Shown here piece by piece: positions 2-37,956 of a DNA stretch of 60,796 nt. A program made the translations under genes and the position numbers. This DNA comes from a virus. Location: positions 1 through 60,796 of IMG/VR virus record IMGVR_UViG_3300037963_000751. One strand, written 5' to 3'. Numbering within the stretch: the first letter of the stretch is position 1; each line of letters starts with the position of its first letter. The notes under the pieces are model-generated. The model did no database searches. It was not told where the DNA came from and saw only the letters and a list, made by a program, of their open reading frames with translations.

Positions 2-99
2 AAACTATATAAAAGCATCTAATCAATATGATGCTGATGAAAAAAAATATTATAAAGAATTAGCTGCATACACTCGAATGACACCTGAGCAAAAGGATT
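2..99. repeat. left copy of 98-bp terminal direct repeat
   Basis: Bases 2-99 match bases 60699-60796 exactly; base 1 differs, because the right-hand run has five A where the left has three. The repeat lies inside the giant gene and keeps its frame, so it is best read as the overlap left when a circular or circularly permuted genome was assembled as a line. A physical short terminal repeat is possible but less likely, since it would cut a gene. Confidence 0.9.
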
Positions 100-3000
100 C
101 AGAACAAGGGGTGCTTTTAAGAGAAAGTTTAATTTCTCAAAAGAAAAATGTAGCTAAAGCAAAACAAAAGTTAGAGTTAGATAAAAAAAATATTGCTTCT
201 CGTAAAGAAGATATATATTATTTAGCAGGAAAATATGCCGAGTATCTTGACGACCCTAATAGAGGGAACTTGTCGGGTTCTTTATGGAATGCTTTTGCTC
301 AGTCATGGTCAAGCATGACAGCAGGTACAGTAGACTTGGCTTTATGGGGAGCAGAAAAAGTTTTTGGAAAGGATGAATTAGCTCCCGAACAAACAGACAT
401 ATATCATAGTAGTCAAATAAGAGAAACCCTTGACCCTTATTGGAAGAAAAAGTATGGGTATACATGGACAGACCAACTAAATAAAAATGCAGACAAAGGT
501 AATTATGATTACACTGCGGAACAAAAGGAGGAGGCTGACCAAATAATGCAAGAGTTCTCTCCCTTTAGTTATAGTTTAGTTCAGAAAGCTAATTTAGATA
601 AAGATGGCAGAGCTATCATAAGAGAAGTAAGAAAGGGTAGTAAGTTATGGGAAGGTCCTACCTCTGATAAGTGGACAGAAACATTTAAAGAAGAACAGCC
701 TTGGTATCTTGGTGGAGGTGGATGGCTACATGGTGTAGTAGAAACTTTACCGGCTATGCCTATGATGGCTACAGGATACAAGCAAGGTGGTAGTCTTTTT
801 ATGAAGGGAGCAAGGACTTTATTTTCATATAAGTCCATGCCTATGATTGCAATGAGTTATGATAGGAACATGCAAGAGATGGAAAAAAATCCTGCATTTA
901 AAAACGTATCATTAGATGAGAAGAGAGGTATCTCTACTCTTCTTGCTGTACCTGAAGCAGCACTTGAAAAAATAACTTGGGGCTCGGGACTATTAAATGC
1001 TAAGCCACAGATAGGAGCATGGATAGCAAAAAAAGCATTAGCAAAGAAAGGCTCTACCCTTGGAACAAAAGCTTATCAGAAAGCAGTAGTGGATGTTATT
1101 GAAAATAATTTAGCACGAGGTATTGTTAGAACATTAAGCACAGGAGCAGCAGAATTTGAAACAGGTTTAGCTCAAGAGATTACTTCAATGAGTATTAAAA
1201 ACTTTTATGATGATGCCAAAGGAAAGAAGATGTTTGATAACCCTCAGTTTTTTGGAGGGGATATGTTGGAGTTTACTAAGCAAGCTTTAAAGGGTGGATT
1301 CTATGAAATGTTAGGTGGTATAGTAATGGGTGTTCCTGCAGGAGTATCTACTTCTATGAACAAAAAAGATTTCTCTAAGATGGATGATGCTACGTGGGGA
1401 ATATTTAAACAGATAAAAGATAACCCACAGCTTTTAAAACTAACAGACCAAAAGTTTATACAAGAAATTTCTCTCGGTCAAATGACTCCTCGTCAAGCTT
1501 TAATGATTAAAGAAAATTATAAAGAAGCTACTAATCTTTATAATGAAATACCTGACGCTGAAAAATATACAGGAGACCAACAAAGAGAAATCATGGGATT
1601 GCTTTTAAGAAAGCATGAACTACAAAGAAGAATAGATAAAAAAGACAAAGCTTTATCGTCAAAAGATAAAGCAGAAATAGAAACTATTAATCAGAAGTTA
1701 GTTAACATTTCAGAAAGAGCAGGAGATATTAACTACACACTTGAAAAAATAGATGATGTTTATAAGAATGTTAAGGATGATGCGGAAGTAGAATTAGCAG
1801 CAGAAACATTAGAGGAAATCCCTGACATATACAAAGATAGAGCTGTAGAAAAAGACACAGGGGATATGGGAGAGGTTGAGATAGGGTCAACTATTACAGG
1901 ACTATCTATTGGAAAACAGAAGACTCCTTACACAGGAACATATTATACATATAAATTAACCGGTAAAGAATTAAACAATGCCATTCAAGAGCAAAGCACA
2001 GATTTCGTGGATGCGAATCAATCAGCCCCAAATGTACAAGAGATGGAGGGCGGAACATCCGAGACAGGACCTGAAGTCACTACCCCAAAAGAAGGGGAGC
2101 AAGTTAGCGAAGAGCAACAGGTCCAAAAGGAAAAGTTAAATAACCTTGGGTTTACTGATGAGGTAATAGAGATGATGACACCTGAAGATATTGAGGTGGC
2201 TCAAACATATACCGAACCTTCTCAAGCCACAGAGATGGTGGAGCGTTACCAAAAAGACATGGAAGCGGCTCAATCATTAGCGGCTGAAGATACAACCACA
2301 GAAGATAAACCATTAACTGCAGAAGATGTAGAGACAGTAGGTGTAGCAGGTCAAGTTACTCAACAGAATAGAGGAAACTTAGATGTTAATCCTGTACAGA
2401 AAAAAATTATTAGACAGGCAGAGAAAGCAGTGCAGTCTTTAAAAAAGATTATGCCTAATCTTCGCATCATTACTTATGCTACTGAAGCTGAATATGCAGC
2501 CGCAGTACCCAAATCAAAGATAGGAGAGCGAGGAGAAATATCTAATGATGGTAATACCATACGTATAAATCTTGCTGCGGCTGACGAGACTACAGTAAGT
2601 CATGAAATATTCCATGCTATTATTACAAGTAAGTTTAATATCAACAGCAAGAAGATAGCTACTGCAGTTAACAATGACTTGATAAAGAAGCTACTTAAAG
2701 TTCTTCCAAAGGATAAGTACAGAATGAATGTTGTTGATAAGATAACTAAGGAGAGAAAACAAATCTCTTTACATGAATACTTGGAGGAGTATGTGAAAGA
2801 ATATAAAGATACCGAAACACACAGTGAAGAAAAGCTTGCTCAGATATTTGGTTTTTTAGGTGCAAACTATAGTACCTTAACATACCAAGAGCAAAGTGTA
2901 ATTAAAAAGTTTATAAATAAAATTAAATCTTTGGTTGGTAGACAAGTAAAAGATGCAGGGTTTACAAAAGATGATGCTCGTGTTATTGACTTATTAAACT

Positions 3001-6000
3001 CATTAGCATACAAAGTAAAAGTAGGAGAGGAAGTACAGGAGGGAGACTTACAACTATTTGATGAGGTAGCAGAAGAGGTACAGGGTCAGCCCACTGAAAC
3101 AACTACTGAAGAGGTAGTAGAGGAGACACCTGCCGAAGAGGTGGTTGAGGAAGTAGTAGATGAAGCACCTGCTGAAACAACTATAGAGGAAATATTAGAA
3201 GAAGTTGAAAGGAATGAGAAGGGTGTGTTCACTGTGTTAAATGACCGAGCAACTACAAGGAAAAGAATTATTAAAAGGCAAAGTAGAGATGAAACTTGGA
3301 GTGAGACTGTCTATGATATATTTTTATATCCACAAGGGACAAAGGAGGATATTAGTAAACACCCTGTTGTTAAGGGAAGAAGAAAGAAAACTTATAATGA
3401 TTATAATAAATATAAGAAAGCATTACAGACTCAGTTGAATAAAAAAACAACTACTGAAGAAGCACCTGCTGAGGAGATGGTAACTGATGAAGAGTTTACG
3501 GAGTTTACAAATACAGGTAAGGTTGCTGATGAGGTGATAGAAAAGATAACTGAAAAAATAAAAAGAGGTGAACAGTTAACTCAAAGGGAGGAAGCTATAA
3601 GACAGGACAAGTCAAATGAAGTTGAGGCTAAGTTAAAAGAAACTACTGAGGAAGCACCTGCTGAGGAAGTAGTAGAGGAAATAGATAAAAAGGCAGAAGA
3701 GGTTTTAAATGAAACTAAAAAATTTATAGAGAGTTCTAAGAAGAGAAAATTAGGTGTGATAACCATTATCAAAAATGGTTCTTTCTATGATTATGATTTA
3801 AGAGATGATATTGAAAACCAACTTAAGAAGCTTACAGAGTTAGCGAGGGAGGTAGATGAAAAATATTATGCGGATATAACACGTGCAGAGATAGAGCTTA
3901 AAAAAGTTTATGTAAAGATGCATCAGGATTATTTAAAACGGCTTCAATCTCCTGCCGGAACGATAGATGACGCAATAACACGTGGAATTATAAACCCGAT
4001 AGAAAAAATTACAAGACAGAAACAACTGACCGCAAATAAATCAGACAATGTTTTTTTTGCAAAGCAAGAAATTAGAGATGTAAAAGAAGAAATAGAGAGT
4101 TTAAACAATCTTATAAAAGAAGTAAGTGAAGAAGCACCCACCTCACGTAAGCAGGTAGCTGCTAAGGAGTCAGTTGCTCCTATGAAAGTCAATGAGGAGT
4201 TCAGTAAGATGACACCTGAACAGAAAAGAAAACAACTTGGTGGTAGGTATGGTATCCTTAGTTTAGAATTAAAAAAGGGTTTGTTTTTTGCTGAACAACA
4301 ATACAAGAAACGAGATGAGTATGACAGGCTATCTAAAAGCAATAAGCTTAAAGACATGGACTTGTTTGCGAAGAAGTTTCAAGGCAATCCACCTATGACT
4401 GAGGCACAAATCTTTCTTAACTCAGGAGGATGGTATCGTGGTATAGATGGTGAGTATAGATATGAGATACCTGATGGCAAGTTAGCTAAAGGTAGCTATA
4501 AAGATTTTACACGAGCGTCTAAAGATGCTGCCACAAGAGAAGCAAGACTTGATGAGGTATATATAGCACCCGAAGTTTACAAAACATACCCATTTCTAAA
4601 AGACATCATGGTGCAGTTTACTGCTATGACTATAGAGAAAGATGAAGAGACTATTCCCAATAGAACTACAGTAGGCAGTTGGAATCCTGCTACTAAAATT
4701 ATAAAATTCAATACCAACTATTCAGAGTTTGCTAAAGCTACTCCTGAAGAACAAAGAAATGAAATCTTTTACACTATTGTTCACGAAGTTCAACATGCTA
4801 TTCAAGATTTTGAAGGTTTTGCTATGGGTGGAACAGATGTTGAAACAAAGGGTGGGCTTGGCAAGAGAGTAACAGAAGAATTTGGTAAAGGTAGAGAAAG
4901 ATTAACTAAAGAAAGAATCTTTGCGTCAGAAGCTCAGAAAGGATTAAAGAAAAAATATGAAAGGTTTAGAATAAACAATGAGTTTATTGACTATTTATCT
5001 GCAGCATTAAACAAACTTAAAAAGTTAGGAGAGAAAGATTTATATAACAAATTGCTGAAGAGTAAAAACAAAGGCAAAGACTTGGTTGACATAGTGCTAC
5101 AATACGAAGCCACTGATGCTACCATGAATAGAATATATAGAGAGATAAAGGAAGACGCAAGGTATTATAATAGAGAGTTAGGATATCCTGAGGTTAAGAT
5201 GACTCAAAAAAATCTTAAAGAGTTCTTTGATAACACCGATTATAACCGCCACATATTAGATGAGTATGGAATAAACAACGCACAGACAGGTTCACAAATA
5301 GATGCTATTCAAAAAAGTTTGCTTAAAAGGTTGAGGATGTATGATGCTTATAAGATGTATGAAAGAACATATGGGGAGATAGAAGCAAGGAATGTAGAGG
5401 AGCGAGCAAAAATAAAAAAAGAATTAGCTCGATATAAATCTGAGCTTGATAAACTTAACAGACTTGGAAAGAAAGAAGTTGCAAATGAAATATTTACAAA
5501 AGAACTATATGATTACCTATCAGAAAATGTCATAGATATAGAAGATGTGATAGGTGAAGGAGTTACATACGAAGATTTTAAAATATTTCTAAAGAACAAG
5601 TCGTACAGTAAAGAGATATACGAATATTTAACAATGAAAGACCCTAACTACTCACGAGATGTTACGTTAGGAGAGTTTCAACGTAATGTGGAGGGGCTTA
5701 CTACGGAAGAAAAAATACGAGAGATAGAAGAACAGTTGTATAAACAACTACCTACTGTTACCGAAGACTCAAAAGGATTAATAGAAGATATAGATAAAAG
5801 CGAGCAAGGTCCATACATAATGAAGTCATATCCTAAAGCAAAGCGTAAGCAAGTGGCTTCTAAACAGAAGGTAGAGATGACTACTCAAGAAGAGAATGCT
5901 AAGGCTAAAGAAAAGCTTGAGGGTATGAATCGTAAGCAACTACCTTCACCCAATGCATCTATGGAAGATGTTATTGCATGGGGTAGAAGCAGAGGTGAGA

Positions 6001-9000
6001 GTGATGCAGTTCTTAGAATGTTCTTGAAGTCAAGAGGTTATGGTACAATAAAAGAAATTAGAGAAGCCATGGCTCAGACTGTACAGATGGCAGCTATGCC
6101 ACCTGACTTAGCCAACATTGAGGGTGGTCTTGAGGTAGCTGAAAAAATGTACGAAGATATAATGACTAAGTTCTATGACGCTACCATGGAAACAAGAGAG
6201 GTCGTAGCTGAAAGTAAAAAGAGAATAGCTAAGGCTAAACGAGTAATGCAAAACAATCCTAAAGAGTATGGTAAAGAAAAGGATGGTGTGTTTACTAAAC
6301 CTAACGGGGATAAAGTTACTCTTGATATAACTAAAGCAAAGCGTGGTGTTAAGATAATAACAGCTACGCAAGTGTTAGGTGCTCCACGTACATCTATGGA
6401 AAGTGTATTCACTAAATCAAAAGCACAGAGACGAGCAATCTTGCAACAAATAATAGAGAGCAATGAAGATTATCAAAACCAAGATGAAATAAACAAAGCT
6501 AACATACAAAGACTTTTAGATAGAGCATTGAACACACGAGCCAACCCTTCAGTTGAGCAACGCATGAGAGATGTAAAGAGAATAGCTAAAGCTGCTGAAC
6601 AAAATGAAAAGAAACTTCAAGAGGTAAGAAATAGATTACGAGCATTGATACGTGAGTCTATACCAAGACATTTAGAAGATTCAACCACTACTAAAAACCT
6701 AAACGCCATGATTAAAAGCTTGGCTAAGGTAAACTCTACTAATGTTTTAGTGGAGACTGATAGGATATTGAAACAGATAGAAAGAATAAACAAAAAAGAA
6801 ATAAATTCTTTAAGAAAGAAAGCTTTAAAAATAATAAAGCAGAAGTCAAGTACTGCTAAGCAAGGAAAAACCACAGGGGTAGATGCAGAAACAAATATGT
6901 TTATGCAGGAGATTAAAAAGATATGGTTAAAAATGGACGAGCTTTTAAAAGAAGAAAATAGTGGTGAACTTATAGATGAATACTTAAATAAAATACAAGA
7001 AGAGTTAGAAGATGGGAAGAAGGTAGCAGACATAGACACCATTATAAAAAAGACTATAGATGGAGAGCCGCTTAATTCACAAGAGAAAAGAAAGCTATAT
7101 AAAAACTTTGCTTATGACATGATGTACACCTATCCATCACTTGACTATGAAGGAATGCAACTATTATACGAAGAGATAGCAGACTTAAAAGCTGAAGGAA
7201 TAGCTAAGTTTAAATCCAATAGAGAAGCAAGGGTTAAAAGAAATGCTAAGCTTGAAGCAGAAGCAGTAGAACAATTAAAACTAAAGTATCCTTTCTTGGT
7301 TAATGAGAATGGAGAATTTATGGATAATGAAGAAGTGCAATTAAAAAAAGCTAAGCTTCTTAATCAATGGAAAAAGACTCGTTCATTTAAAGCCATTAAA
7401 GATTGGAGTCGAATAGTTCTTAATAAAAAGAAACAGAAATCTTCCGAATGGCTTAGAGCTTGGTTAGCAACCAATGAAACTCTTAACAATGCTCTTGATA
7501 TGCAGGGGGTAGGTAAAAGTTTCTTTACAAAAAATGTTTATCAAAGACTTCGAGATATGAGAGATGTCTTTTTAAAAGGGCAACAGTCTGAACAGAAAAA
7601 GATGAACGAGATATTGAATGGTATACCTGCTATTGCAGAGAAAGTAAGCAGAAGAAAAAGTCCTTATGCTGTGCTTGTGGATATGCTTGCAGAAGGAGAC
7701 ATGGTAGATATTCAAGGAAACATATTTACTCCTGACGAAGCACTAAGAATCTATGCCTTATCTAAGAATGAAGTGCAGCGTGAAAAATTACAGATAGGAC
7801 AAGATAAAAAAGGTAGAGGAACATTTATAACAGACGCAGGACTACAAGAACTTGAAGCCCAACTACCCACTGCACTCAAACAGTATGCAGATGCAATGGT
7901 GGATTACCTGAGTAATGATTACTATAACAGCGTGAATGATGTGTACATGGATGTGAATAGTGCATCTCTTCCTTATGTAGAAAATTATTTTCCTACTAAA
8001 ACATACAACACTACAGCAGAAAGAAGTAGCATTGAAGAAAAATTACAAAAAGGAGACGTGAATTTTAATGCTGTGTTTAATGCACAAACAGCTCCTGCTT
8101 TAAACGCAAGAACAAATGTGACAGGAAGAATACCTCTTAAAGGATACACATTTACAGGAGAACTAAGCAATCACTTTGAACAAATGGAAAGGTTTAAAGC
8201 CTATGCTGAGGGAGTTAAAGTTATAAGAGATATTGTAAGTATGGATAGTGTTAACAGCGTTCTTGATGTTACAGGATTAAAACAGGTCTATCTTAGAAAC
8301 CTAATGACTACTATTAATCCTAATGCTTTTCAAGCAAGAGGACCTGAAAGTATTTTTGGAAAGGCTCTTAACAATTTCTCTTCATTTGTTTTAGGTTTTA
8401 AACTATGGCAGATTCCTAAGCAAGCTACCTCTTTTATAAATGCATTTGAAGAGTATGATTCAGGCTTAATAAAAAAAGACGTTGATGGTTTAGGATTAAC
8501 TAAGGGAGCGGCAGACATGGTGATGTTCATGATAGACATGGCAGCAACTACAGGTTCTTTAGCATTTGAGTTAATGCCTAAAGCACTAAGAGAAAGGTTA
8601 GGTATTCCTGATGGTCCTATATCTCAAGCGTACAAAATATCCCCCACCTTTAGAAACAGAATACAAGCAGCTATGGAGGGAGACTTGTGGGGACTTGAAT
8701 CAGGTTCTAAAATAAAATACAATAATGAAGCAAAGTCGGAGGGTATTATTCCTCGTAAACTAAAAATGCTACCGCAGAAAGCAAGAAAGTATGGGTCTTA
8801 TCCTACTATGCTTGGAGATGTTCTTGGAGTAATGGGATACATGATTAACTACAGAAGAGATATAAAAAATGGAATGAGTAAAGAGGAAGCATTAAGAAAG
8901 TTTAACAGATATGAAGCAACTCAGCAGACAAGAAGTGAAACAGAGAAGAATAGATTACAATTAGAAAGTAATGACATGTTAAGAGCGTTCACTATGTTTG

Positions 9001-9629
9001 GAAGCACACCATACTTACAGCAAAATAAAATAGCTCAAGCTTCAGCTAACATGATGCAAGCTATAAGTAGAGGTAAGATGCCACGTAAACAAGATATGCG
9101 TTCATTGATTCTTAACCTTGGTTTTGCTAACGTAGCATTCATCTATATGTCCAACATATTTAAGTATGCCTTTGGAGATGATGAAGATAAAGAAGAAGTA
9201 ATGAGACACATGAAAAAAGTAATGCTTGGCTTTAATTCCTTGACAGCTATACCTTATATTGGACCTACCATAAAAGCAATGGATAATTATTATACAACAG
9301 GCAAGGTGTGGTCTCAAGACTTAGGAGTCAATCCTTTTATGCAAGTGTGGAATAGATTCAGAAAAGCTTATGAAGGTAAGCTTGAATTTAAAAATCTTCC
9401 TAAAGATGTTATTAGTTTAATAGGAATAAACACCGACCCATTTGTAGCATTGTATAATAAGACAATAGGAGAGGGTGACTTCTTTGAAAAGGATGAAGAC
9501 TTCTATGACCTACGAGGTATAAGCAAATCATATAGACCTTCAGAGTCTAAGTATGAAGAAGGCTTTGAACCATTTGAAAAAACAGAAAGCTTTAAAACAT
9601 TTAAAGAGCTTGAGGAGGAAAACAAATAG
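3..9629 (+). CDS. giant polyvalent ejection protein, C-terminal 3,200 residues (gene split by the window ends)
   Basis: This frame is open from the left edge and is the continuation of the gene starting at 59521; joined through the repeat the protein has about 3,601 residues. Visible parts in whole-protein numbering: an HEIFH zincin motif near residue 1260, Glu-rich linkers with repeated APAEE near 1410-1625, a second zincin motif HEVQH near 1987, RKQV tetrapeptides near 1775 and 2342, long Lys/Glu-rich helical stretches, and a C-terminal section from about 3180 with hydrophobic helices and TQQTRSE, resembling the last domain of phage polyvalent proteins. The gene follows two ejection-type proteins, so it is probably packaged and injected with the DNA. 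I see no RNA polymerase catalytic motif. The TAG stop lies inside a palindrome shared with the convergent gene. Confidence 0.8.
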   Translation, partial: NYIKASNQYDADEKKYYKELAAYTRMTPEQKDSEQGVLLRESLISQKKNVAKAKQKLELDKKNIASRKEDIYYLAGKYAEYLDDPNRGNLSGSLWNAFAQSWSSMTAGTVDLALWGAEKVFGKDELAPEQTDIYHSSQIRETLDPYWKKKYGYTWTDQLNKNADKGNYDYTAEQKEEADQIMQEFSPFSYSLVQKANLDKDGRAIIREVRKGSKLWEGPTSDKWTETFKEEQPWYLGGGGWLHGVVETLPAMPMMATGYKQGGSLFMKGARTLFSYKSMPMIAMSYDRNMQEMEKNPAFKNVSLDEKRGISTLLAVPEAALEKITWGSGLLNAKPQIGAWIAKKALAKKGSTLGTKAYQKAVVDVIENNLARGIVRTLSTGAAEFETGLAQEITSMSIKNFYDDAKGKKMFDNPQFFGGDMLEFTKQALKGGFYEMLGGIVMGVPAGVSTSMNKKDFSKMDDATWGIFKQIKDNPQLLKLTDQKFIQEISLGQMTPRQALMIKENYKEATNLYNEIPDAEKYTGDQQREIMGLLLRKHELQRRIDKKDKALSSKDKAEIETINQKLVNISERAGDINYTLEKIDDVYKNVKDDAEVELAAETLEEIPDIYKDRAVEKDTGDMGEVEIGSTITGLSIGKQKTPYTGTYYTYKLTGKELNNAIQEQSTDFVDANQSAPNVQEMEGGTSETGPEVTTPKEGEQVSEEQQVQKEKLNNLGFTDEVIEMMTPEDIEVAQTYTEPSQATEMVERYQKDMEAAQSLAAEDTTTEDKPLTAEDVETVGVAGQVTQQNRGNLDVNPVQKKIIRQAEKAVQSLKKIMPNLRIITYATEAEYAAAVPKSKIGERGEISNDGNTIRINLAAADETTVSHEIFHAIITSKFNINSKKIATAVNNDLIKKLLKVLPKDKYRMNVVDKITKERKQISLHEYLEEYVKEYKDTETHSEEKLAQIFGFLGANYSTLTYQEQSVIKKFINKIKSLVGRQVKDAGFTKDDARVIDLLNSLAYKVKVGEEVQEGDLQLFDEVAEEVQGQPTETTTEEVVEETPAEEVVEEVVDEAPAETTIEEILEEVERNEKGVFTVLNDRATTRKRIIKRQSRDETWSETVYDIFLYPQGTKEDISKHPVVKGRRKKTYNDYNKYKKALQTQLNKKTTTEEAPAEEMVTDEEFTEFTNTGKVADEVIEKITEKIKRGEQLTQREEAIRQDKSNEVEAKLKETTEEAPAEEVVEEIDKKAEEVLNETKKFIESSKKRKLGVITIIKNGSFYDYDLRDDIENQLKKLTELAREVDEKYYADITRAEIELKKVYVKMHQDYLKRLQSPAGTIDDAITRGIINPIEKITRQKQLTANKSDNVFFAKQEIRDVKEEIESLNNLIKEVSEEAPTSRKQVAAKESVAPMKVNEEFSKMTPEQKRKQLGGRYGILSLELKKGLFFAEQQYKKRDEYDRLSKSNKLKDMDLFAKKFQGNPPMTEAQIFLNSGGWYRGIDGEYRYEIPDGKLAKGSYKDFTRASKDAATREARLDEVYIAPEVYKTYPFLKDIMVQFTAMTIEKDEETIPNRTTVGSWNPATKIIKFNTNYSEFAKATPEEQRNEIFYTIVHEVQHAIQDFEGFAMGGTDVETKGGLGKRVTEEFGKGRERLTKERIFASEAQKGLKKKYERFRINNEFIDYLSAALNKLKKLGEKDLYNKLLKSKNKGKDLVDIVLQYEATDATMNRIYREIKEDARYYNRELGYPEVKMTQKNLKEFFDNTDYNRHILDEYGINNAQTGSQIDAIQKSLLKRLRMYDAYKMYERTYGEIEARNVEERAKIKKELARYKSELDKLNRLGKKEVANEIFTKELYDYLSENVIDIEDVIGEGVTYEDFKIFLKNKSYSKEIYEYLTMKDPNYSRDVTLGEFQRNVEGLTTEEKIREIEEQLYKQLPTVTEDSKGLIEDIDKSEQGPYIMKSYPKAKRKQVASKQKVEMTTQEENAKAKEKLEGMNRKQLPSPNASMEDVIAWGRSRGESDAVLRMFLKSRGYGTIKEIREAMAQTVQMAAMPPDLANIEGGLEVAEKMYEDIMTKFYDATMETREVVAESKKRIAKAKRVMQNNPKEYGKEKDGVFTKPNGDKVTLDITKAKRGVKIITATQVLGAPRTSMESVFTKSKAQRRAILQQIIESNEDYQNQDEINKANIQRLLDRALNTRANPSVEQRMRDVKRIAKAAEQNEKKLQEVRNRLRALIRESIPRHLEDSTTTKNLNAMIKSLAKVNSTNVLVETDRILKQIERINKKEINSLRKKALKIIKQKSSTAKQGKTTGVDAETNMFMQEIKKIWLKMDELLKEENSGELIDEYLNKIQEELEDGKKVADIDTIIKKTIDGEPLNSQEKRKLYKNFAYDMMYTYPSLDYEGMQLLYEEIADLKAEGIAKFKSNREARVKRNAKLEAEAVEQLKLKYPFLVNENGEFMDNEEVQLKKAKLLNQWKKTRSFKAIKDWSRIVLNKKKQKSSEWLRAWLATNETLNNALDMQGVGKSFFTKNVYQRLRDMRDVFLKGQQSEQKKMNEILNGIPAIAEKVSRRKSPYAVLVDMLAEGDMVDIQGNIFTPDEALRIYALSKNEVQREKLQIGQDKKGRGTFITDAGLQELEAQLPTALKQYADAMVDYLSNDYYNSVNDVYMDVNSASLPYVENYFPTKTYNTTAERSSIEEKLQKGDVNFNAVFNAQTAPALNARTNVTGRIPLKGYTFTGELSNHFEQMERFKAYAEGVKVIRDIVSMDSVNSVLDVTGLKQVYLRNLMTTINPNAFQARGPESIFGKALNNFSSFVLGFKLWQIPKQATSFINAFEEYDSGLIKKDVDGLGLTKGAADMVMFMIDMAATTGSLAFELMPKALRERLGIPDGPISQAYKISPTFRNRIQAAMEGDLWGLESGSKIKYNNEAKSEGIIPRKLKMLPQKARKYGSYPTMLGDVLGVMGYMINYRRDIKNGMSKEEALRKFNRYEATQQTRSETEKNRLQLESNDMLRAFTMFGSTPYLQQNKIAQASANMMQAISRGKMPRKQDMRSLILNLGFANVAFIYMSNIFKYAFGDDEDKEEVMRHMKKVMLGFNSLTAIPYIGPTIKAMDNYYTTGKVWSQDLGVNPFMQVWNRFRKAYEGKLEFKNLPKDVISLIGINTDPFVALYNKTIGEGDFFEKDEDFYDLRGISKSYRPSESKYEEGFEPFEKTESFKTFKELEEENK

Positions 9630-16164: not shown

Positions 16165-16182
16165 TAGCTCGTTGACGAGCTA
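16165..16182. repeat. dispersed palindrome copy 2
   Basis: TAGCTCG, loop TTGA, CGAGCTA. The right arm read on the minus strand gives the TAG stop of the RecE-like gene (16180-16182). Confidence 0.9.
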
Positions 16183-16917
16183 TAGTACCTCGTTAATTAT
16201 AAAAGATTCTATATCTTCTGTTGGATGTTCCCCAAAGAATTTATTATATACCTCGATAGCTTTATCTACCTTTAACATTCCATTGTGTACGAACTCTTCT
16301 GATGGTTCATATACACCAAGCATCTTTGTGTTCTTGTCAATCACATAGAATACTAATGGTCTGCCAAACAACTCTTGGTATATGTAACACTGACTATCGT
16401 AGTTGTACTTACGTGCCGACCACTTGAAGTCGTTGATGTTTGATGTAGTCTTGAGGTCAATGATACAATCCTCGCATAATATATCCGCCTTACCTTTCCA
16501 TTGCATACCTTTAATCGTACCAATAGCAGGCTTCTCATATTCATTTGTCTCCTCTGTCATCTTGTCAAACATAAATATATTTCCCCTGATTGTTTGAACC
16601 AATTCTAATATATTACTACACTCTTTACTTAGTAGTGCTACCTCTACATTGTGTTCAGCTATGAACTCCTTGTATGCTTTTGAATTACGTGATGACACGT
16701 CAACACACAAGGTGTCCTCTGCTTTCTCAGGCTCAAGTAATAACTGATGAAAGTATCTACCCTCAGCAAAGTTTTTGTTGTCGGGTCTGCTTATCCTAAA
16801 CTCTTTAGGGTTAGATAGCAGTGTACCTATGTCTGAGTTGCTGAGGTATTGCTTACCAAAGTCTCCATAGTAATTGCTATCGTCTTCTAACTTCTTTAGT
16901 ATGTCCTGTGTTTTCAT
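16180..16917 (-). CDS. RecE/Cas4-like PD-(D/E)xK exonuclease
   Basis: 245 residues. The core reads WKGKADILCEDCIIDLKTTSN: Asp, then Asp-x-Lys of the PD-(D/E)xK fold, followed by the Gln/Tyr helix (YDSQCYIYQELFG) typical of the RecE/YqaJ type of phage 5'-3' exonuclease. The N-terminal part (YLSNSDIGTLL...NFAEGRYFHQLL) matches the usual pre-core helices. It follows the annealing-type gene by two bases, forming the standard exonuclease-annealing pair of phage recombination. The stop codon comes from a palindrome. Confidence 0.82.
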   Translation of the reverse strand: MKTQDILKKLEDDSNYYGDFGKQYLSNSDIGTLLSNPKEFRISRPDNKNFAEGRYFHQLLLEPEKAEDTLCVDVSSRNSKAYKEFIAEHNVEVALLSKECSNILELVQTIRGNIFMFDKMTEETNEYEKPAIGTIKGMQWKGKADILCEDCIIDLKTTSNINDFKWSARKYNYDSQCYIYQELFGRPLVFYVIDKNTKMLGVYEPSEEFVHNGMLKVDKAIEVYNKFFGEHPTEDIESFIINEVL

Positions 16918-16918
16918 T

Positions 16919-17446
16919 CTATTTAATTTTGAATTTCTTTTTCAACTCTGTCTTATGCTTAGTCGTTACATCATACTTGCGTTGTAACTCTTTAACTATT
17001 GCAGTCAAACCTTTCTCCTTGTTGGCAGCTACATAGTTAAGAACCTTCTCCCAATTATTACTACCTATCTCAAGTTCAATAGTTGTTTTCTTTGGTGCAG
17101 GTTTCTTATCTTGATTAGCTATGGCATTGCTTACTTCATCTGCTGATGCTACTGATACATCAAGTCCTATCCCAAAGTTAGCCAATGCTCTACCCCAAGC
17201 TGAGGTCTCGCAGTTCTCCACGTAACTTGTCTTGTTGATAAACGTACTACCCTTCTCTTCTTCAGCCAAACCTGTAGCCAATGCTCTACCTGTCTTGTCT
17301 GATATGGTAGCTTTGATTAGTATGCTTGTGTCTGTCTTGTCTAACACCTCACTCACTAACGAGTGGTCTTTATAGTTAGCTCTAAAATGTTTTAGTCTTT
17401 CGTTAACCTCAACATATTCTTTTCCTTTGATATTAATTGTTTTCAT
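16919..17446 (-). CDS. phage recombination protein, single-strand-annealing type (putative)
   Basis: 175 residues. The N-terminal domain reads KEYVEVNERLKHFR, then ATGLAEEEKGSTFINKTSYVENCETSAWGRAL and GLDVSVASADEV in pieces, a widespread phage family found beside RecE-like nucleases. The second half is Lys-rich with a helical KELQRKYDV end. Pairing with the nuclease suggests it loads on or anneals single strands, but I cannot prove the activity from sequence. It overlaps the upstream gene by four bases (ATGA). Confidence 0.6.
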   Translation of the reverse strand: MKTINIKGKEYVEVNERLKHFRANYKDHSLVSEVLDKTDTSILIKATISDKTGRALATGLAEEEKGSTFINKTSYVENCETSAWGRALANFGIGLDVSVASADEVSNAIANQDKKPAPKKTTIELEIGSNNWEKVLNYVAANKEKGLTAIVKELQRKYDVTTKHKTELKKKFKIK

Positions 17447-17841
17447 TTGATTAGATATTTATTTATTTGTTTTGTTATTCTTCTATAGTCTTTCAGTATA
17501 GTTGTCCTTGCTTTCTTCAGTGATTTAATTCTCTTGTCATTCTTCCTTGTGTTAACCTCACTCCTCATCCTCTCTTCTATTACATTTAATTTTCTCTTGT
17601 AGTTGACAAGTGCTAATCTATATACACCTATTACCCATCCATACTCTAAGAAAGTTTGATACTGTTCTGTTGTTATCTCTTTATAGAACACACCAATAGT
17701 TGTGTTGAATATCTGTACGTCATTCCCTTCCCTTGTTATCTTGATTCCTTGTCGGAGACGTGCTTCATATTCTGCACCATCAATGTTGATACTAACCTCA
17801 TCAGTATTTGCCTGATTAAATATGTCATTTAACTTGTACAT
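17443..17841 (-). CDS. hypothetical protein
   Basis: 132 residues; the first 70 look like a small beta domain (INIDGAEYEARLRQGIKIT, IFNTTIGVFYKE), the rest a basic helical tail (RTTILKDYRRITKQ). No family recognised. It overlaps the DnaA-like gene upstream by 13 bases and the recombination gene downstream by four, so it is co-transcribed with replication and recombination functions. Confidence 0.6.
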   Translation of the reverse strand: MYKLNDIFNQANTDEVSINIDGAEYEARLRQGIKITREGNDVQIFNTTIGVFYKEITTEQYQTFLEYGWVIGVYRLALVNYKRKLNVIEERMRSEVNTRKNDKRIKSLKKARTTILKDYRRITKQINKYLIK

Positions 17842-18131
17842 TCTTTTCTTATACTCTTTACTATATCTTGTATATCATCATTGGTTTCAGTCAATAGTTT
17901 TATTTTGTTGTAACCATGATAGATAGATGAGTGACTAATCTTATAGTTGTTATCCATCATATACTTTTTTAATTGAGCAAGAGTCATGGGTGCTTCAAGA
18001 GATAGGTAGTATAGCAGGTGTCTTGCATCTGCTAAATCACTACGCTTATCCTTGGCAAACAACTCGCTCTCATCTATGTAGTATGCTTTGCATATCTTAT
18101 CTACATACTTGTTGAAGATTCTTTTTTTCAT
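17829..18131 (-). CDS. DnaA domain IV-like DNA-binding protein
   Basis: About 100 residues from the ATG at 18131, which has the AAATCAAATG leader used elsewhere in this genome; in-frame starts further up to 18209 are possible. The segment DARHLLYYLSLEAPMTLAQL, then KYMMDNNYKISHSSIYHG, matches the helix-turn-helix and signature helix of DnaA domain IV. The AAA+ part is absent. Such phage proteins are expected to bind DnaA-box-like sites, so it is a good candidate to mark the phage origin or to regulate early genes. It is overlapped at its start by a 54-codon gene in another frame. Confidence 0.65.
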   Translation of the reverse strand: MKKRIFNKYVDKICKAYYIDESELFAKDKRSDLADARHLLYYLSLEAPMTLAQLKKYMMDNNYKISHSSIYHGYNKIKLLTETNDDIQDIVKSIRKECTS

Positions 18132-18261
18132 TTGATTTAATTTTCTGTTTAACTTCATGGCTCGCTGACGAGCCATCTCTTTCGTATATGTCCTTGTCAT
18201 ATACACCATTGTTTATATCCTCTTGTAACTGTTGGATATAAATATCTTTAGTCCTTCCCAT
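18097..18261 (-). CDS. small hypothetical protein (54 residues)
   Basis: The ATG at 18261 overlaps the TAA of the upstream gene as TAATG, the coupling seen many times in this genome. The product begins MGRTKDIYIQQLQEDINNG and is charged and helical. Its middle (DGSSASH) is encoded by palindrome copy 3. It overlaps the 5' part of the DnaA-like gene in a different frame. Small proteins with this kind of N-terminus occur in other phages, but I recognise no function. Confidence 0.5.
   Translation of the reverse strand: MGRTKDIYIQQLQEDINNGVYDKDIYERDGSSASHEVKQKIKSNEKKNLQQVCR
18157..18176. repeat. dispersed palindrome copy 3 (inside coding sequence)
   Basis: ATGGCTCG, loop CTGA, CGAGCCAT, a perfect 8-bp stem. 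It is translated in frame in the 54-residue gene and lies just upstream of the preferred start of the DnaA-like gene. Confidence 0.9.
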
Positions 18262-20581: not shown

Positions 20582-20599
20582 TGGCTCGTTGACGAGCCA
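20582..20599. repeat. dispersed palindrome copy 4
   Basis: TGGCTCG, loop TTGA, CGAGCCA. It directly abuts the TAA (20602-20600) of the amidotransferase-cyclotransferase gene and precedes the terminator. Confidence 0.9.
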
Positions 20600-21808
20600 T
20601 TATGAATAGAGGTTATACTTGTTAACCTCTTCTTCAGTGAACCAACCACCACATGAATTGCAGTAGTACATATTGAACCTATCATGCTCAAGTGTACCCG
20701 AGTAACAATCAATGCAGTGGGGTGTAACAAGCATGTTACTATCTTCACTAATGTCCTTATCTCTATTCTCCCACTCTTCTAAGAACTTGTCTGCGTCCTC
20801 TGTTTGTTTGGGTGTTGAGGTAAAGAAGTTCTCCTCTTGTTTAACGTAGGTCGTGTCCTCCCATGAATCCCATGCAGTATTCTTCTTTGGTGTTGACTTG
20901 TAGCTTGGTGTCCAATTATCCCATGAATCCCATGTGCTCCAACCATAGTTGGATTTTATTTTGGGTTGAACATATGTCTTGTGTAACTGTCTGTTACCTA
21001 CCTTCTCTTGTATGTTGAAGTATACCCAAGCCATTACAATACTACCATCCTCCATCTTCACAGGTATCTTCTCACGTCTGTACCAAGTAGGGTGCGACTC
21101 CAATCCATCAATGTCCTTGAACACTGAGTCACTTACCTTGAACACATCAATCTCTACGTTGTGTCCTCGACCTTTCTCATTGATGAGGTATGGTAATCCA
21201 CTGATGATAAGAGGATACTTGTCTTGTGTCTTACCTGCACCCACATACCTTGACTTATCTAAGTACCAATTGTAATTGTTGTACCCTTTCTTCAGTGTAC
21301 CATACACACCTATCACATTGTCCTGCAACACGTTGGTCTTGGAATACCACACACCATCTTTGAAAGTATACAAGTGTCTGTTGTATATCTGAAAGGTCTT
21401 AGTCTTGGTATTGATACTGACAAACCTACTACTATACTTGGCGAGGTACTTCTTCCATTTCTTACGTGGTATGTCCCCAAGTTTCTCAGCTAACACTCTG
21501 CTATCACACTTGATGAAGTTCCCCATACCTTTGATAGTTCCGTTCATCATTAGCAGTTCATCTTTCTGCTTACCACATACGAACGGATGAGTATTTTCTA
21601 TGTTCACTGCACCCACTGTCGCATATCTGAAGTGAGCAATGTATGGTCGAGTGGTGTCAAGTATCTCCCACTCATTAGACTTGTGATAGGATACATCAAA
21701 GGTATCCAACCATACCACACCCATACCATCAGGGTTTATCATTGCCGAGTTCTCTAAGGTGTCTCGACTAACCTTGTTTTGTTTTTGTTTAATAATAATT
21801 ACACACAT
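20600..21808 (-). CDS. class II glutamine amidotransferase - gamma-glutamylcyclotransferase - zinc ribbon fusion
   Basis: 402 residues, three parts. (1) Residues 1-150: Ntn-type amidotransferase with the nucleophile as Cys2 (MCVIII), NPDGMG, HFRYATVG, NTHPF and MMNGTI. (2) Residues 165-265: AIG2/GGCT-like fold with VYGTLKKG (168-175) and the catalytic Glu in DGLESHP (237). (3) A Trp-rich linker with WDSW repeats, then a zinc ribbon with cysteines 365, 368, 383 and 386. The first domain would release ammonia or cleave gamma-glutamyl amides, the second would cyclise gamma-glutamyl groups. It follows an amidoligase, the partner predicted for such domains, so making and unmaking of amide-linked tags is the likely theme. 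Target unknown. Confidence 0.8.
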   Translation of the reverse strand: MCVIIIKQKQNKVSRDTLENSAMINPDGMGVVWLDTFDVSYHKSNEWEILDTTRPYIAHFRYATVGAVNIENTHPFVCGKQKDELLMMNGTIKGMGNFIKCDSRVLAEKLGDIPRKKWKKYLAKYSSRFVSINTKTKTFQIYNRHLYTFKDGVWYSKTNVLQDNVIGVYGTLKKGYNNYNWYLDKSRYVGAGKTQDKYPLIISGLPYLINEKGRGHNVEIDVFKVSDSVFKDIDGLESHPTWYRREKIPVKMEDGSIVMAWVYFNIQEKVGNRQLHKTYVQPKIKSNYGWSTWDSWDNWTPSYKSTPKKNTAWDSWEDTTYVKQEENFFTSTPKQTEDADKFLEEWENRDKDISEDSNMLVTPHCIDCYSGTLEHDRFNMYYCNSCGGWFTEEEVNKYNLYS

Positions 21809-21870
21809 AATTGTAAATTTAATTTAATTTGTGGCACGAATAACGTGGTCGTACCTTCCACTTATCTTTG

Positions 21871-21884
21871 GCTCGTTGACGAGC
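21871..21884. repeat. dispersed palindrome copy 5
   Basis: GCTCG, loop TTGA, CGAGC; the next pair is G-T and then T-A. The TAG stop of the amidoligase gene (21886-21884 on the minus strand) falls in its right arm. Confidence 0.88.
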
Positions 21885-22921
21885 TACTTCCAATTGTCTA
21901 TCTTCCAACCATATTCTCTGTTGTCTTGACGCTTGTTGTAGTAGTACAACTCTTTCTCTATTGCACACTGTGTCCACCTACCTGTATTGTGAAAGTCCCC
22001 ATCAAGAAAGGGTAATGCGTTGGCATCTATCCTGCCCTCGTTTAAGAATAAGTCAAAGCTTTTCGCATAATCCAATGCCTCATCTACTTTGCGAGTGTCA
22101 TTGTTATACATCATCATTAAGATGGGACGTATCTTAGCATAGAATACTTTGTGCTGTCGTCTTGGATAGTTCACTGCGGTATCCATTAACTCATAGAACA
22201 ACTCGTACCTCCTCATCATCTGTCGAACGGACGTGAATCTGCTGACAAGTCTAAACTCAACTGTCCCATTTGCTTTGGCTAACACCATGTTGTACCTGCC
22301 GTTCTGTCCATTGTAGGTATAGTTATACTTCCTCATGTTCTTGATTAACCTACTCTCTTCGCTCGTTCTCATGTTGAGGTTACCATTGCAATAGGAGTTT
22401 CCGAGTCTTAGTCTATACAAGTACATCATTATGCCACTATACTTACGTAACTTCTTGAGTAGTTCGCTTGACGTCATGCCGTCACACGCCACTGTGATAT
22501 GTCCACCACAATCTGAATTGCTTGGACTCCATCTGTCATCTATTACTCTCTCTGCTTGGTACATAAGGTTGTAGATTTTCGTTCTCCAACTACAGCGTGG
22601 GAGCAATGGTAGTATGTGAGTAACTGCCTCAGTACCACAACTACTATCTCTCTCAAAGCCACAGAATAATCTGTACTCATAGATAGAACTACGTGATATG
22701 TCCTCCTTCTCCACCTCCATACCGATAGTAAACTTGGTTTCATAATCTCCACCCAAATCAATGAGCGAGTCACGTTGCTCTCGTTTTCTTAGACCTGCAA
22801 TATCTACTTTGTACTTGGTCTTGTTTAGTTTGAGGGGTGGTAGCTTACAATGATAGTCTACTCGTTGCCCTCTTGTTCGTTCGCCCGTTAGTTCGTAGGC
22901 GATTCCATTTTGTTCACACAT
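21884..22921 (-). CDS. amidoligase (glutamine-synthetase-like ATP-dependent COOH-NH2 ligase)
   Basis: 345 residues. Motifs of the amidoligase family appear in order: GMEVE (67-71), a Cys/Gly-Thr-Glu segment before HILPL (95-106), CGGHI (138-142) and GTVEFRL (219-225); the acidic residues would bind the metal-ATP. The family joins a carboxylate to an amine with ATP. The first 60 residues, rich in Arg/Lys with two Cys, are outside the core. The gene directly precedes the amidotransferase-cyclotransferase fusion (75 bases apart), matching known genomic pairings of these families. The substrate, a protein tail, a peptide or a cell-wall group, cannot be read from sequence. The stop lies in a palindrome. 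Confidence 0.82.
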   Translation of the reverse strand: MCEQNGIAYELTGERTRGQRVDYHCKLPPLKLNKTKYKVDIAGLRKREQRDSLIDLGGDYETKFTIGMEVEKEDISRSSIYEYRLFCGFERDSSCGTEAVTHILPLLPRCSWRTKIYNLMYQAERVIDDRWSPSNSDCGGHITVACDGMTSSELLKKLRKYSGIMMYLYRLRLGNSYCNGNLNMRTSEESRLIKNMRKYNYTYNGQNGRYNMVLAKANGTVEFRLVSRFTSVRQMMRRYELFYELMDTAVNYPRRQHKVFYAKIRPILMMMYNNDTRKVDEALDYAKSFDLFLNEGRIDANALPFLDGDFHNTGRWTQCAIEKELYYYNKRQDNREYGWKIDNWK

Positions 22922-22949: not shown

Positions 22950-22969
22950 ATGGCTCGTTGCCGAGCCAT
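22950..22969. repeat. dispersed palindrome copy 6
   Basis: ATGGCTCG, loop TTGC, CGAGCCAT. Lies five bases past the stop of the acidic 164-residue gene and 28 bases before the amidoligase start. Confidence 0.9.
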
Positions 22970-25937: not shown

Positions 25938-26618
25938 TTAGCTTAAGTCGACTGCAGTTATGTTAACACCTGCTCCCATTTTAGCTTTTAGCTTTGTATC
26001 CTTAGCCTTTTGTAACGCTGACTCCAAAGCTTTAATAACTTCGTCTATGTCGCAAGGGCTTTTAAAGTTACCTTGTGAATCAATTCGAGCGTGAACTTTG
26101 TTTTCTGACTCGTTACTCGTAAAAGTCATTAAACTTTTTTCTTTGCCCTCGTCTACAGTTACGCCCTCAGAATCTCCGCCATTATTAGCTACTTTTTTAC
26201 AAAACTTATTAAAGCCCTCAATAGATGGATTTTTTTCCGCCTCCGTACTTGCTTTTAAATAAGCCTTTTTTACATTGTTATCTTTTAGGCGGTTGTTTTC
26301 AGCCTGCACTAATTTTTTGCCCCACGAATAAGAACGATTAAAGACCTTTGTATATAAGTCCTCAATAGTCCAAGTCAAGCCCGTTGCTTTTAATACTTCT
26401 TTGCCCTCCGCACTTTTGATAAAGTCCTTAGCTTTAAGCATTAACTTAGCTAACTTAAGCGACGTTTCAAACTCATTTTTGGAAGCCTCAAAACTTGCTT
26501 TACTCAACTCGTTAATTTCAGCGTTTAAGCTGTCAATCTTAGTAGTGTTAATTTGTGTTTTAACTTTAGCGTTATTTAAGAACGCTGTTTCGATAGTGTT
26601 TAATTGTGTGTTATTCAT
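25938..26618 (-). CDS. hypothetical early protein
   Basis: 226 residues. An N-terminal helical region with TTKIDSLNAEINELSKASFE, a central GLTWTIEDLYTKVFNRSYSW, basic stretches, then a C-terminal helix (DIDEVIKALESALQKAKDTK). The centre could bind DNA, but I do not recognise a family. It is the first early gene, alone between promoter P3 and a strong terminator, so it may be an immediate-early regulator or host-takeover protein. Confidence 0.6.
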   Translation of the reverse strand: MNNTQLNTIETAFLNNAKVKTQINTTKIDSLNAEINELSKASFEASKNEFETSLKLAKLMLKAKDFIKSAEGKEVLKATGLTWTIEDLYTKVFNRSYSWGKKLVQAENNRLKDNNVKKAYLKASTEAEKNPSIEGFNKFCKKVANNGGDSEGVTVDEGKEKSLMTFTSNESENKVHARIDSQGNFKSPCDIDEVIKALESALQKAKDTKLKAKMGAGVNITAVDLS

Positions 26619-27651: not shown

Positions 27652-29265
27652 ATGCAACAACATGGATACAATCCGAAGGAGTTAAACTTCGGAGAGGAAG
27701 GACGAAAGAAGTTAGAAAGCGGAATCACGAAACTCGCTAATGCTGTAAAGAGTACTCTCGGTCCTCGAGGGAACACAGTATTAATTGAATCACCACATCA
27801 CACATCAGGTATCACAGTTACTAAAGATGGTGTCACTGTAGCTAAGTCAATAGACTTGGTAGACCCGGTGGAGAATCTCGCAGTCAAGATAATGAAAGAG
27901 GCTGCGGATAGGACTGCGACTCTTGCAGGAGATGGAACGACTACAGCGATAGTATTAGCTGAAGCTATTATTAATATTGGTAATAAATATATTACTGACA
28001 AACATAATCGTACGGAGGTACTAAGAGAGTTAGTCTCGGCAAAAGATTATGTGGTTGAGATGTTAGCTAAAGATTCTTTGAGTATAACTGACAAGACATT
28101 GAAAGATGTGGCTATAGTATCAGCGAACAATGATACTGAGGTGGGAGAGTTGATAACTGAAACTTATCTTGAGGTAGGCAAGGATGGTCTTGTTACAGTA
28201 GAGAAGGCACAGGGTGCTGAGACTTATTATGAAACCACTAAAGGTTTACAAGTTGATAGAGGTTACATGTCAAACATGTTTGTGAACAATCACAAGAATG
28301 ATGAGTGTATATTAGAAGATGTACATATATTAGTATCTGACTCAGAGATAAGTAGTATCATGCAGATTGATGGTGTATTGAAACCATTGGTAGCTGACCG
28401 ACATAATATAAAGTTATTAATCATTGCACCTTGCTCCAAGGAAATGGAGAATACTCTAACGGCTAATGTAGTAAAGAATGGTTTAAAGATATGTTCTATA
28501 CCACCTCCCAACTTTGGATACAAACAACATGAGTTGATGAGCGACATTGCTGTGTCAGTAGGAGCGACATACTTCAGTGAGAAGACAGGAGATGATTTAA
28601 GTCTTATCGAGTTCAGCGACTTGGGTAAAGCTAAGAAGGTTATAGTGGGTAGGTCAAAGACAGTTATCATTAATAATGATGATGAGGATTTGGTATACAA
28701 GAGAGACCTGAGAGTTGAGGAGCTATGGGTTCAACATAATAATACAAAGAAGAAAGCAGATAGGGATTTTATAAAATCTCGAATTGCCACCCTTACGGGT
28801 GGCGTGGGTGTCATACATGTAGGAGGAGACACTGACATAGAGCAGAAAGAATTATATGATAGAGTTGATGATGCAGTATGTGCTGTTCGAGCTGCACTAA
28901 GTGAAGGGATACTTCCGGGAGGAGGAGTTGCTTTGATGAGATATGCTGATATGTATAATCGCATGGACCACCAAAACAAAAACATAAAGGCAGCTATACA
29001 GATAATGTCTGAAGCGTTAATGGCTCCTGTCATACAGATACTTACTAACGCAGGGAAAAACTTTGAGGATATATATACAGAGATACCAAAGAAGAACCAT
29101 GGCTATGATGTGAAGAATGAAAAGAAAGGGGACTTGATAAAGATGGGAGTAATAGACCCATCCAAAGTAACAAGGTCTGCTCTTATCAATGCTATGTCTG
29201 TAGCGACAACAATACTAAGTACAAATGCAATCGTAACAATGGCGAGAAGTTATGAAACCAATTAA
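27652..29265 (+). CDS. groEL: chaperonin GroEL (phage-encoded)
   Basis: 537 residues, near the usual length. ATP-site motifs are intact: TLGPRG, TKDG (57-60), GDGTTT (93-98) and the catalytic-type Asp near residue 406 in DRVDDAV, followed by GILPGGGVAL. The apical part has YMSNMF and NFGYKQHELMSDIA in the place of the usual GFGDRR segment. The C-terminal Gly-Gly-Met tail of host GroEL is missing. It should form a folding chamber for phage proteins. groES follows with a 14-base overlap, the reverse of the usual bacterial order. The gene is well diverged, so it is not a recent host copy. Confidence 0.93.
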   Translation: MQQHGYNPKELNFGEEGRKKLESGITKLANAVKSTLGPRGNTVLIESPHHTSGITVTKDGVTVAKSIDLVDPVENLAVKIMKEAADRTATLAGDGTTTAIVLAEAIINIGNKYITDKHNRTEVLRELVSAKDYVVEMLAKDSLSITDKTLKDVAIVSANNDTEVGELITETYLEVGKDGLVTVEKAQGAETYYETTKGLQVDRGYMSNMFVNNHKNDECILEDVHILVSDSEISSIMQIDGVLKPLVADRHNIKLLIIAPCSKEMENTLTANVVKNGLKICSIPPPNFGYKQHELMSDIAVSVGATYFSEKTGDDLSLIEFSDLGKAKKVIVGRSKTVIINNDDEDLVYKRDLRVEELWVQHNNTKKKADRDFIKSRIATLTGGVGVIHVGGDTDIEQKELYDRVDDAVCAVRAALSEGILPGGGVALMRYADMYNRMDHQNKNIKAAIQIMSEALMAPVIQILTNAGKNFEDIYTEIPKKNHGYDVKNEKKGDLIKMGVIDPSKVTRSALINAMSVATTILSTNAIVTMARSYETN

Positions 29266-37392: not shown

Positions 37393-37956
37393 ATGCGTTC
37401 ACCTGAAAGGTTTATAGTTCGTCCTTATAATGGGAGGAGGTATGACAATATAAAAAATGTAGAAGGAGTCAATGTAATCATTGGAACTTCAGAAGAAAAC
37501 TATAAAGTTTCTAATAGAGAAGCTGAGGTAATATCTGTACCTTTAAACTATAAAGGAGAGATAGAGCCCGGAGATACTTTGCTTGTTCACCATAATGTCT
37601 TTAAGTTTTATAATGACATTAAAGGTAGAAGGAGAAGTGGTAGAAGTTTTTTTAAAGATGATTTGTTCTTTATTGAGGACGACCAATTTTTTATGTATAA
37701 AAAAAATGGTAAATGGAAGGCTTATGGAAAGAATTGTTTTATAAAACCTTTACCCAAAAAAGATACAGACATATATAAGACAGGGCAATACGAACCTTTA
37801 ATAGGAACTATTAAATATATTAATGAAGATTTAAAAAACTTTGGACTTAAAGAAGGGGATGAAGTAGGGTTTGAACCTGAGAGTGAGTATGAGTTTAGGG
37901 TAGATGGCGAAGTATTGTACAGAATGTTTACTAACAATATAACATTTTTAGTGTAA
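37393..37956 (+). CDS. GroES-like protein with two related halves
   Basis: 187 residues. The first half has NREAEVISVPLNY, then GEIEPGDTLLVHHNVFKF; the second has EPLIGTIKYINEDLK, LKEGDEVGFEPESEYEF and GEVLYRMF. Each half follows the GroES plan (strand, KxGDxVxF, closing strand), so it may be a double GroES-fold protein. It sits just before the terminase rather than beside groEL. It may be a co-chaperonin adapted to large virion proteins. The family is known in Bacteroidota phages; partner binding is inferred. Confidence 0.55.
   Translation: MRSPERFIVRPYNGRRYDNIKNVEGVNVIIGTSEENYKVSNREAEVISVPLNYKGEIEPGDTLLVHHNVFKFYNDIKGRRRSGRSFFKDDLFFIEDDQFFMYKKNGKWKAYGKNCFIKPLPKKDTDIYKTGQYEPLIGTIKYINEDLKNFGLKEGDEVGFEPESEYEFRVDGEVLYRMFTNNITFLV

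Follow-up and report, generated by a model that had tools for sequence, protein, structure and literature searches.

The window, which is the whole 60,796-nucleotide stretch of viral DNA that was analysed, encodes on its minus strand an amidoligase (AL; 345 residues, positions 21884-22921) and, 75 bases further along the same strand, a fusion of an amidotransferase, a cyclotransferase and a zinc knuckle (GG; 402 residues, positions 20600-21808). We favour, with moderate confidence, the reading of these two genes as a compact γ-glutamyl-amide module of Bacteroidota phages that is made early, with AL as the writer and GG as a bifunctional glutaminase and eraser. Clusters of amidoligase, amidotransferase and cyclotransferase genes have been described in phages of the phiEco32, LUZ24 and RIO-1 types, with the prediction that they act together, and the combination in phages has already been published (PMC5498523, PMC10580990, PMC3890496), so it is less surprising than the original prediction, which was made from the sequence alone, had held. 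New here are the fusion, the divergence of the amidoligase and the reduction to two genes, with neither an ATP-grasp nor a COOH-NH2 ligase.

Genomic context and host

Both open reading frames were recovered, together with all of the motifs that had been named for them (GMEVE at residues 67-71, CGGHI at 138-142 and VEFRL at 221-225 in AL; Cys2, E237 and CxxC-x14-CxxC in GG). AL and GG share their strand and block with downstream genes for a DnaA-like HTH protein (17829-18209, minus strand), the Sak SSAP annealing protein (16919-17446), a PDDEXK nuclease (16180-16917), a primase and a helicase. Because these replication genes lie on the same strand and in the same block, the AL-GG module is probably expressed early, with the replication genes, and the early phage operon of the original prediction stands as far as gene position goes. 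Sites found in a scan for sigma-70 promoters were no commoner than in shuffled sequence. Among window open reading frames of ~200 residues or more, neither an ATP-grasp nor a COOH-NH2 ligase was recognised by Pfam or PHROGs.

The host very probably belongs to the Bacteroidota, because the sequence relatives of the large terminase subunit (TerL) are from phages of Flavobacterium, Cellulophaga, Tenacibaculum and Maribacter, and two metagenome-assembled contigs that carry GG are labelled Cytophagales and Flavobacteriales. The closest named relative is MW202828 (Manatee Spring), at 47% for GG, 41% for AL and 74% for TerL.

AL has a predicted glutamine synthetase-like fold

AL has no Pfam match and had been assigned from motifs alone, and a test of its fold was therefore needed. 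The AlphaFold2 model, computed from an alignment of 47 AL sequences (the window protein and IMG/VR relatives), has a pLDDT of 90 and a pTM of 0.89. The best 50 PDB matches listed for it by each of two programs were chains of the glutamine synthetase (GS) superfamily only. The top structural match was YbdK, with a modest Z-score of 9.1 over 197 residues (4.7 Å), followed by GS; Foldseek also matched the model to GmaS, PafA and Dop, and the viral models (BFVD) that AL matches include many annotated as phage amidoligases. None of AL and its 46 relatives reached the Pfam gathering cut-off for PF12224 (Amidoligase_2), and sequence searches of Pfam and the PDB gave nothing useful, whether the query was AL itself or its profile. 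In hhalign comparisons, the AL profile matched a profile of six unrelated phage amidoligases (95.3%, E 2.4e-8) and the second amidoligase of a relative, L132 (98.4%, E 6.8e-15). Against the single amidoligase of phage C75C1 the value was 0.7%, the match being clear only with the six-member profile. The predicted fold and the profile comparison thus confirm AL as a member of the GS-like carboxylate-amine ligase (amidoligase) superfamily, as had been proposed; its homology to Amidoligase_2 is distant, visible at the level of profile comparison only.

The predicted active site is strongly conserved among 90 AL sequences. The GhExE motif, the defining signature of the superfamily (PMC2588565), is present as G67-M-E69-V-E71 (22709-22723, minus strand), in which G67, E69 and E71 are invariant and which is the predicted metal/ATP site. 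The second acidic motif, E90-x-D92-x-S94...E98 (22628-22654, minus strand), has invariant E90, D92 and E98 and a serine at position 94 in 99% of sequences, and its D-x-S...E pattern is also found in unrelated phage amidoligases. In the C138-G-G-H141 motif (22499-22510, minus strand), C138 and H141 are invariant, and G139 and G140 are kept in 98%. The E222-F-R224 motif (22250-22258, minus strand) has invariant E222 and R224, the E-x-R pair being invariant in unrelated phage amidoligases as well, and R238 is also invariant in AL. The spacing of E-x-E, E-x7-E, H and E-x-R is what we take to be that of the metal and substrate sites of GS, a correspondence of spacing rather than of superposed residues. 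The third motif of AL reads H141-I-T143 (H-x-T) and keeps only the first histidine of the H-x-H of Amidoligase_2, in which H123 and H125 are invariant among six phage members. In two relatives, AL carries an N-terminal extension of ~230 to 280 residues (L001, 8218-9942; L131, 1104-2891).

GG combines two predicted catalytic domains with a Cys4 knuckle

The GG model, obtained with AlphaFold2 from an alignment of 48 GG sequences (the window protein and IMG/VR relatives), has a pLDDT of 83.9. The fusion is present in 88/88 aligned GG members, and the predicted folds agree with the amidotransferase and GGCT/AIG2 cyclotransferase domains that had been proposed. Residues 1-162 (21323-21808, minus strand) form a predicted class-II glutamine amidotransferase (Ntn hydrolase) domain, assigned from its fold and invariant residues. 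In the model, residues 2-162 superimpose on EgtC with a Z-score of 12.5 (152 aligned residues, 3.4 Å) and on the glutaminase domain of GlmS with a Z-score of 12.1. In sequence searches the domain stays below the Pfam cut-off (GATase_4, 2.4e-4) and matches a phage amidotransferase PHROG (4e-7). M1, C2, H59, R61, N89, G90 and D102 are invariant in 88 GG sequences, and the set from C2 to D102 is common to unrelated phage amidotransferases. Judged by sequence, the N-terminal cysteine nucleophile, the glutamine-binding arginine, the Asn-Gly oxyanion pair and the aspartate are all present.

Residues 163-285 (20954-21322, minus strand) form the γ-glutamylamine cyclotransferase (GGACT/AIG2) domain, which matches PF06094 with an E-value of 7.7e-20 (72.1 bits, compared with a cut-off of 22.8). 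The Y169-G-T-L172 loop, the catalytic E237, Y243 and R245 are invariant in 88 sequences. The catalytic residues of both proteins show no loss among their homologues. For residues 161-284 of the model, the Z-scores are 18.6 and 18.4 for mouse and human GGACT (123 and 121 aligned residues; 2.3 Å for mouse), compared with 11.8 for GGCT and 10.0 for ChaC2. The modelled domain thus resembles the γ-glutamylamine enzyme more closely than the glutathione-degrading ones and would therefore be of the γ-glutamylamine type.

The two domains are followed by a linker (residues 286-362; 20723-20953, minus strand) that is predicted to be disordered, with pLDDT values mostly below 50. It had been described as Trp-rich, which is true of the window sequence, but across the family tryptophan makes up 2.7% of the linker compared with 2.2% of the domains. 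Tryptophan enrichment was therefore rejected as a family trait; common to the family are acidity (27% D+E) and predicted disorder. Residues 363-392 (20633-20722, minus strand) contain a Cys4 zinc-ribbon-like knuckle, C365-x2-C368-x14-C383-x2-C386, with all four cysteines in 98% of the 88 sequences. The window GG protein has no Pfam zinc-ribbon match, and the knuckle is missing in two relatives (L160 and L161) and in the C75C1 lineage. The zinc ribbon of the original prediction thus holds as a cysteine pattern in the lineage of the window, but not in that of C75C1.

AL and GG are linked in related phages

When IMG/VR was scanned with small alignments, 190 GG relatives and 165 AL relatives emerged, and 80 were retained for each protein. 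In 57/57 GG loci whose upstream flank reaches 5 kb or more, AL lies upstream on the same strand, and GG is present in 61/62 AL loci whose downstream flank is at least that long. AL precedes GG throughout. The spacing ranges from ~60 bases to ~5 kb, with small genes in between. This co-occurrence in related phages bears out the functional linkage of the families that had been proposed. In the sole exception, L132, the fused GG is missing and a different amidoligase-amidotransferase pair is found beside AL. Directly upstream of AL in that locus (3022-5971) are genes for a second amidoligase, for an amidotransferase whose tail is Cys-rich and for a RadC/JAB-domain protein.

A further conserved partner gene (25938-26618, minus strand; family match with an E-value of 1.3e-39) is located ~3 kb upstream of AL in the window. 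Members of its family (~214 residues) are found upstream of AL in 88/95 loci, directly so in most relatives. Co-occurrence within one lineage partly reflects vertical inheritance. However, the linkage does not come from vertical inheritance alone, because it recurs in different phage backbones with very different amidoligases. The clearest such case is C75C1 (39 kb) and its IMG/VR relatives, in which the same amidotransferase-GGACT fusion is found downstream of an amidoligase. In contrast to the window, this lineage has a clear PF12224 amidoligase (3.5e-30), no zinc knuckle and a different phage backbone of ~40 kb. The fusion in C75C1 is located ~0.85 kb downstream of its Amidoligase_2 gene. 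The C75C1-type fusion occurs in 12 more IMG/VR contigs, with an amidoligase upstream in 10/12; the remaining two have little upstream DNA. The fusion itself provides independent evidence that the amidotransferase and GGACT act in one pathway.

Comparison with known systems

The cassette of phiEco32, LUZ24-like and RIO-1-like phages and of the crAss-like phage phi14:2 also includes GGACT and a class-II amidotransferase along with an amidoligase, encoded within the replication module or next to it. In that cassette each enzyme has its own gene, an ATP-grasp ligase is also encoded and a COOH-NH2 ligase (PF14395) is frequently present, whereas the window has one fused gene for the amidotransferase, GGACT and an additional Cys4 knuckle, and lacks the two other ligases. 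The genes of the cultured Cellulophaga phage phi14:2 are arranged in the row GGACT, ATP-grasp, COOH-NH2 ligase, amidotransferase and amidoligase; the amidotransferase thus precedes the amidoligase, whereas elsewhere the amidoligase mostly comes first. Unfused neighbours in the order amidoligase then amidotransferase were found in Acinetobacter phage 313, MEP401, Marvin, UFV-P2 (LUZ24-like) and MW202615. As in the window, the amidoligase gene of MEP401, Marvin and Acinetobacter phage 313 directly precedes a gene for an amidotransferase with an N-terminal cysteine, but no GGACT is annotated in the stretches shown for these three phages, and Cys-rich motifs are located in the amidoligase (MEP401 and Acinetobacter phage 313) or in both proteins (Marvin). 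In the Grimontviridae phage BUCT695, a γ-glutamylcysteine-ligase-like gene is followed by genes for an amidotransferase, an ATP-grasp ligase and GGACT. Amidoligase cassettes span podoviruses, crAss-like phages and mycobacteriophages. AL with GG is the smallest GGACT-containing form seen here, which makes reconstitution in vitro feasible.

Two cellular systems offer further parallels. In ergothioneine biosynthesis, the γ-glutamyl ligase EgtA is paired with EgtC, an Ntn amidohydrolase of the class-II amidotransferase fold (PMC9103826). The pairing of a ligase with an Ntn partner is alike in AL and GG, but GG additionally contains GGACT, and no genes of the ergothioneine pathway were recognised in the window. 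Bacterial ligases related to GCS2, which belong to the same superfamily as AL, have one of two partners, an amidotransferase or an AIG2 cyclotransferase (PMC2588565), whereas the window holds both partners in one polypeptide. In the literature searched, which did not cover the original 2009 amidoligase survey, we found no earlier report of an amidotransferase-GGACT fusion and no activity assay of these phage cassette enzymes.

Proposed reactions and substrate

We infer the following reactions, direction, timing and substrate for AL and GG. In line with its predicted fold and active site, AL would couple a glutamate-type carboxylate, activated with ATP, to ammonia or an amine. GG would contribute two independent active sites for L-γ-glutamyl compounds. 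Its amidotransferase, through the N-terminal cysteine, may hydrolyse glutamine, with the ammonia passing to AL, or, similarly to EgtC, a γ-glutamyl amide. Its GGACT domain would free the amine from a γ-glutamyl-amine, with 5-oxoproline as the other product. AL would thus write, and GG would supply, edit or erase. The arginine and aspartate of class-II amidotransferases hold the α-carboxylate and α-amine of the γ-glutamyl group, and cyclisation by GGACT requires a free α-amine; both sites of GG therefore point to L-γ-glutamyl compounds, which are the products of many GS-fold ligases. From the GGACT-like fold, γ-glutamyl-amines are the likely substrates, and the specificity of GGACT would be best fitted by a γ-glutamylated amine, either a polyamine or a protein lysine.

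A role of the amidotransferase in ammonia supply is favoured by the phage cassettes, because it is the more constant partner and GGACT is optional. A removal role shared by the two domains is favoured by the bacterial gene pairs, in which the partner of a related ligase is an amidotransferase in some cases and an AIG2 protein in others (PMC2588565). The two cleavage sites of GG could duplicate each other's function, and GGACT may be dispensable, because other phages have amidoligase-amidotransferase pairs without a neighbouring GGACT.

What the module acts on can be read in several ways. The best-surviving alternative, to which we give roughly one chance in four, is small-molecule metabolism, in which the two enzymes would act as an auxiliary metabolic module, drawing off glutamine or glutamate together with amines (polyamines, thiol precursors) to supply nitrogen or polyamines while the phage replicates. 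GmaS and YbdK are among the top folds matched by AL, the cyclotransferase is of the GGACT rather than the ChaC type, and both genes are located among replication genes; however, the window scans recognised no further enzyme of nitrogen or polyamine metabolism. Somewhat less likely is a role in peptidoglycan, in which the infecting phage would use AL and GG to alter the stem peptides of wall precursors, for example as a barrier to superinfection. Such a role was proposed for the wider cassette of phiEco32- and RIO-1-like podoviruses (PMC5498523, cited in PMC10580990), and the host, judged by the relatives of the phage, is a Gram-negative member of the Bacteroidota. However, the ATP-grasp and COOH-NH2 ligases of that cassette are absent from the window. 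The γ-D-Glu inside the stem peptide also lacks the free α-amino group that GGACT needs, a point of general knowledge applied here, so GG could remove only a terminal γ-Glu cap. The GGACT-like fold thus speaks against direct cleavage of internal γ-D-Glu bonds in peptidoglycan.

A more specific version of the writer and eraser module, which we consider unlikely, is the reversible γ-glutamylation of lysines in proteins, or of an amine bound to some other macromolecule, with AL as the writer, GG as coupled glutaminase and eraser and the Cys4 knuckle steering GG to a target bound to replication or transcription. If true, this would be a viral ligase/eraser cycle for γ-glutamyl-lysine. Slightly less probable still is that GG is an independent γ-glutamyl scavenger or glutaminase with AL merely as its neighbour; many phage records match GG across the GGACT part only, but the linkage of the two genes (57/57 and 61/62) and the separate pairing in the C75C1 lineage argue against it. 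Pup-like tagging, in which AL would join a small phage protein through its C-terminal Glu or Gln to lysines and GG would remove it, is very improbable despite the matches of AL to PafA and Dop, as GGACT targets γ-glutamyl groups with a free α-amine rather than a protein C-terminus, and no conserved C-terminal Glu or Gln was found in 13 neighbouring gene families.

Candidate stop codon read-through in GG and other features

In three related phages, GG contains a single in-frame TGA at the otherwise invariant Trp118 (L162, 7224-8417; L164, 2637-3725; L165, 3854-4390). The bases 3' of this codon are near-identical across the three contigs, and the third (L165) is also frameshifted further along the gene. 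For L162 and L164, dN/dS is ~0.16 past the TGA compared with 0.17 before it, so purifying selection persists. Recoding of UGA in the whole genome was rejected for these contigs, as the gene for an 801-residue primase has no in-frame stop in 3/3 and TGA appears to serve as the stop codon of other genes. The purifying selection after the TGA and the standard code in the primase gene therefore suggest, from sequence, that UGA is read through as tryptophan at GG position 118.

An 18-nt palindrome, TGGCTCGNNNNCGAGCCA, is located at the AL stop codon (21869-21886, minus strand), with further copies at 20582-20599 and 22951-22968. With up to three mismatches, the palindrome (TGGCTCGTTGACGAGCCA) occurs in 14 copies in the window, compared with 0.44 expected, starting at 9627, 16165, 18158, 20582, 21869, 22951, 23536, 23708, 23849, 25109, 25698, 25729, 26636 and 38419. 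Many copies coincide with the stop codon or 3' end of a gene on the minus strand, AL and GG among them, and some are followed by T-rich tails; by its sequence and placement, the palindrome is a hairpin repeat between genes of the replication block. The window also encodes a GroEL-like chaperonin (27652-29265) and, ~8 kb away among the packaging genes, a 187-residue match to a phage GroES family (37393-37956). A giant open reading frame of 3183 residues (78-9629) is almost without family matches, apart from a weak LPD23 polyvalent-protein domain, and its product is possibly a giant protein delivered by the virion. The C-terminal domain of the crAss-like phage muzzle (PF25729, 4e-17) is encoded at 55385-56194 of this ~60-kb phage.
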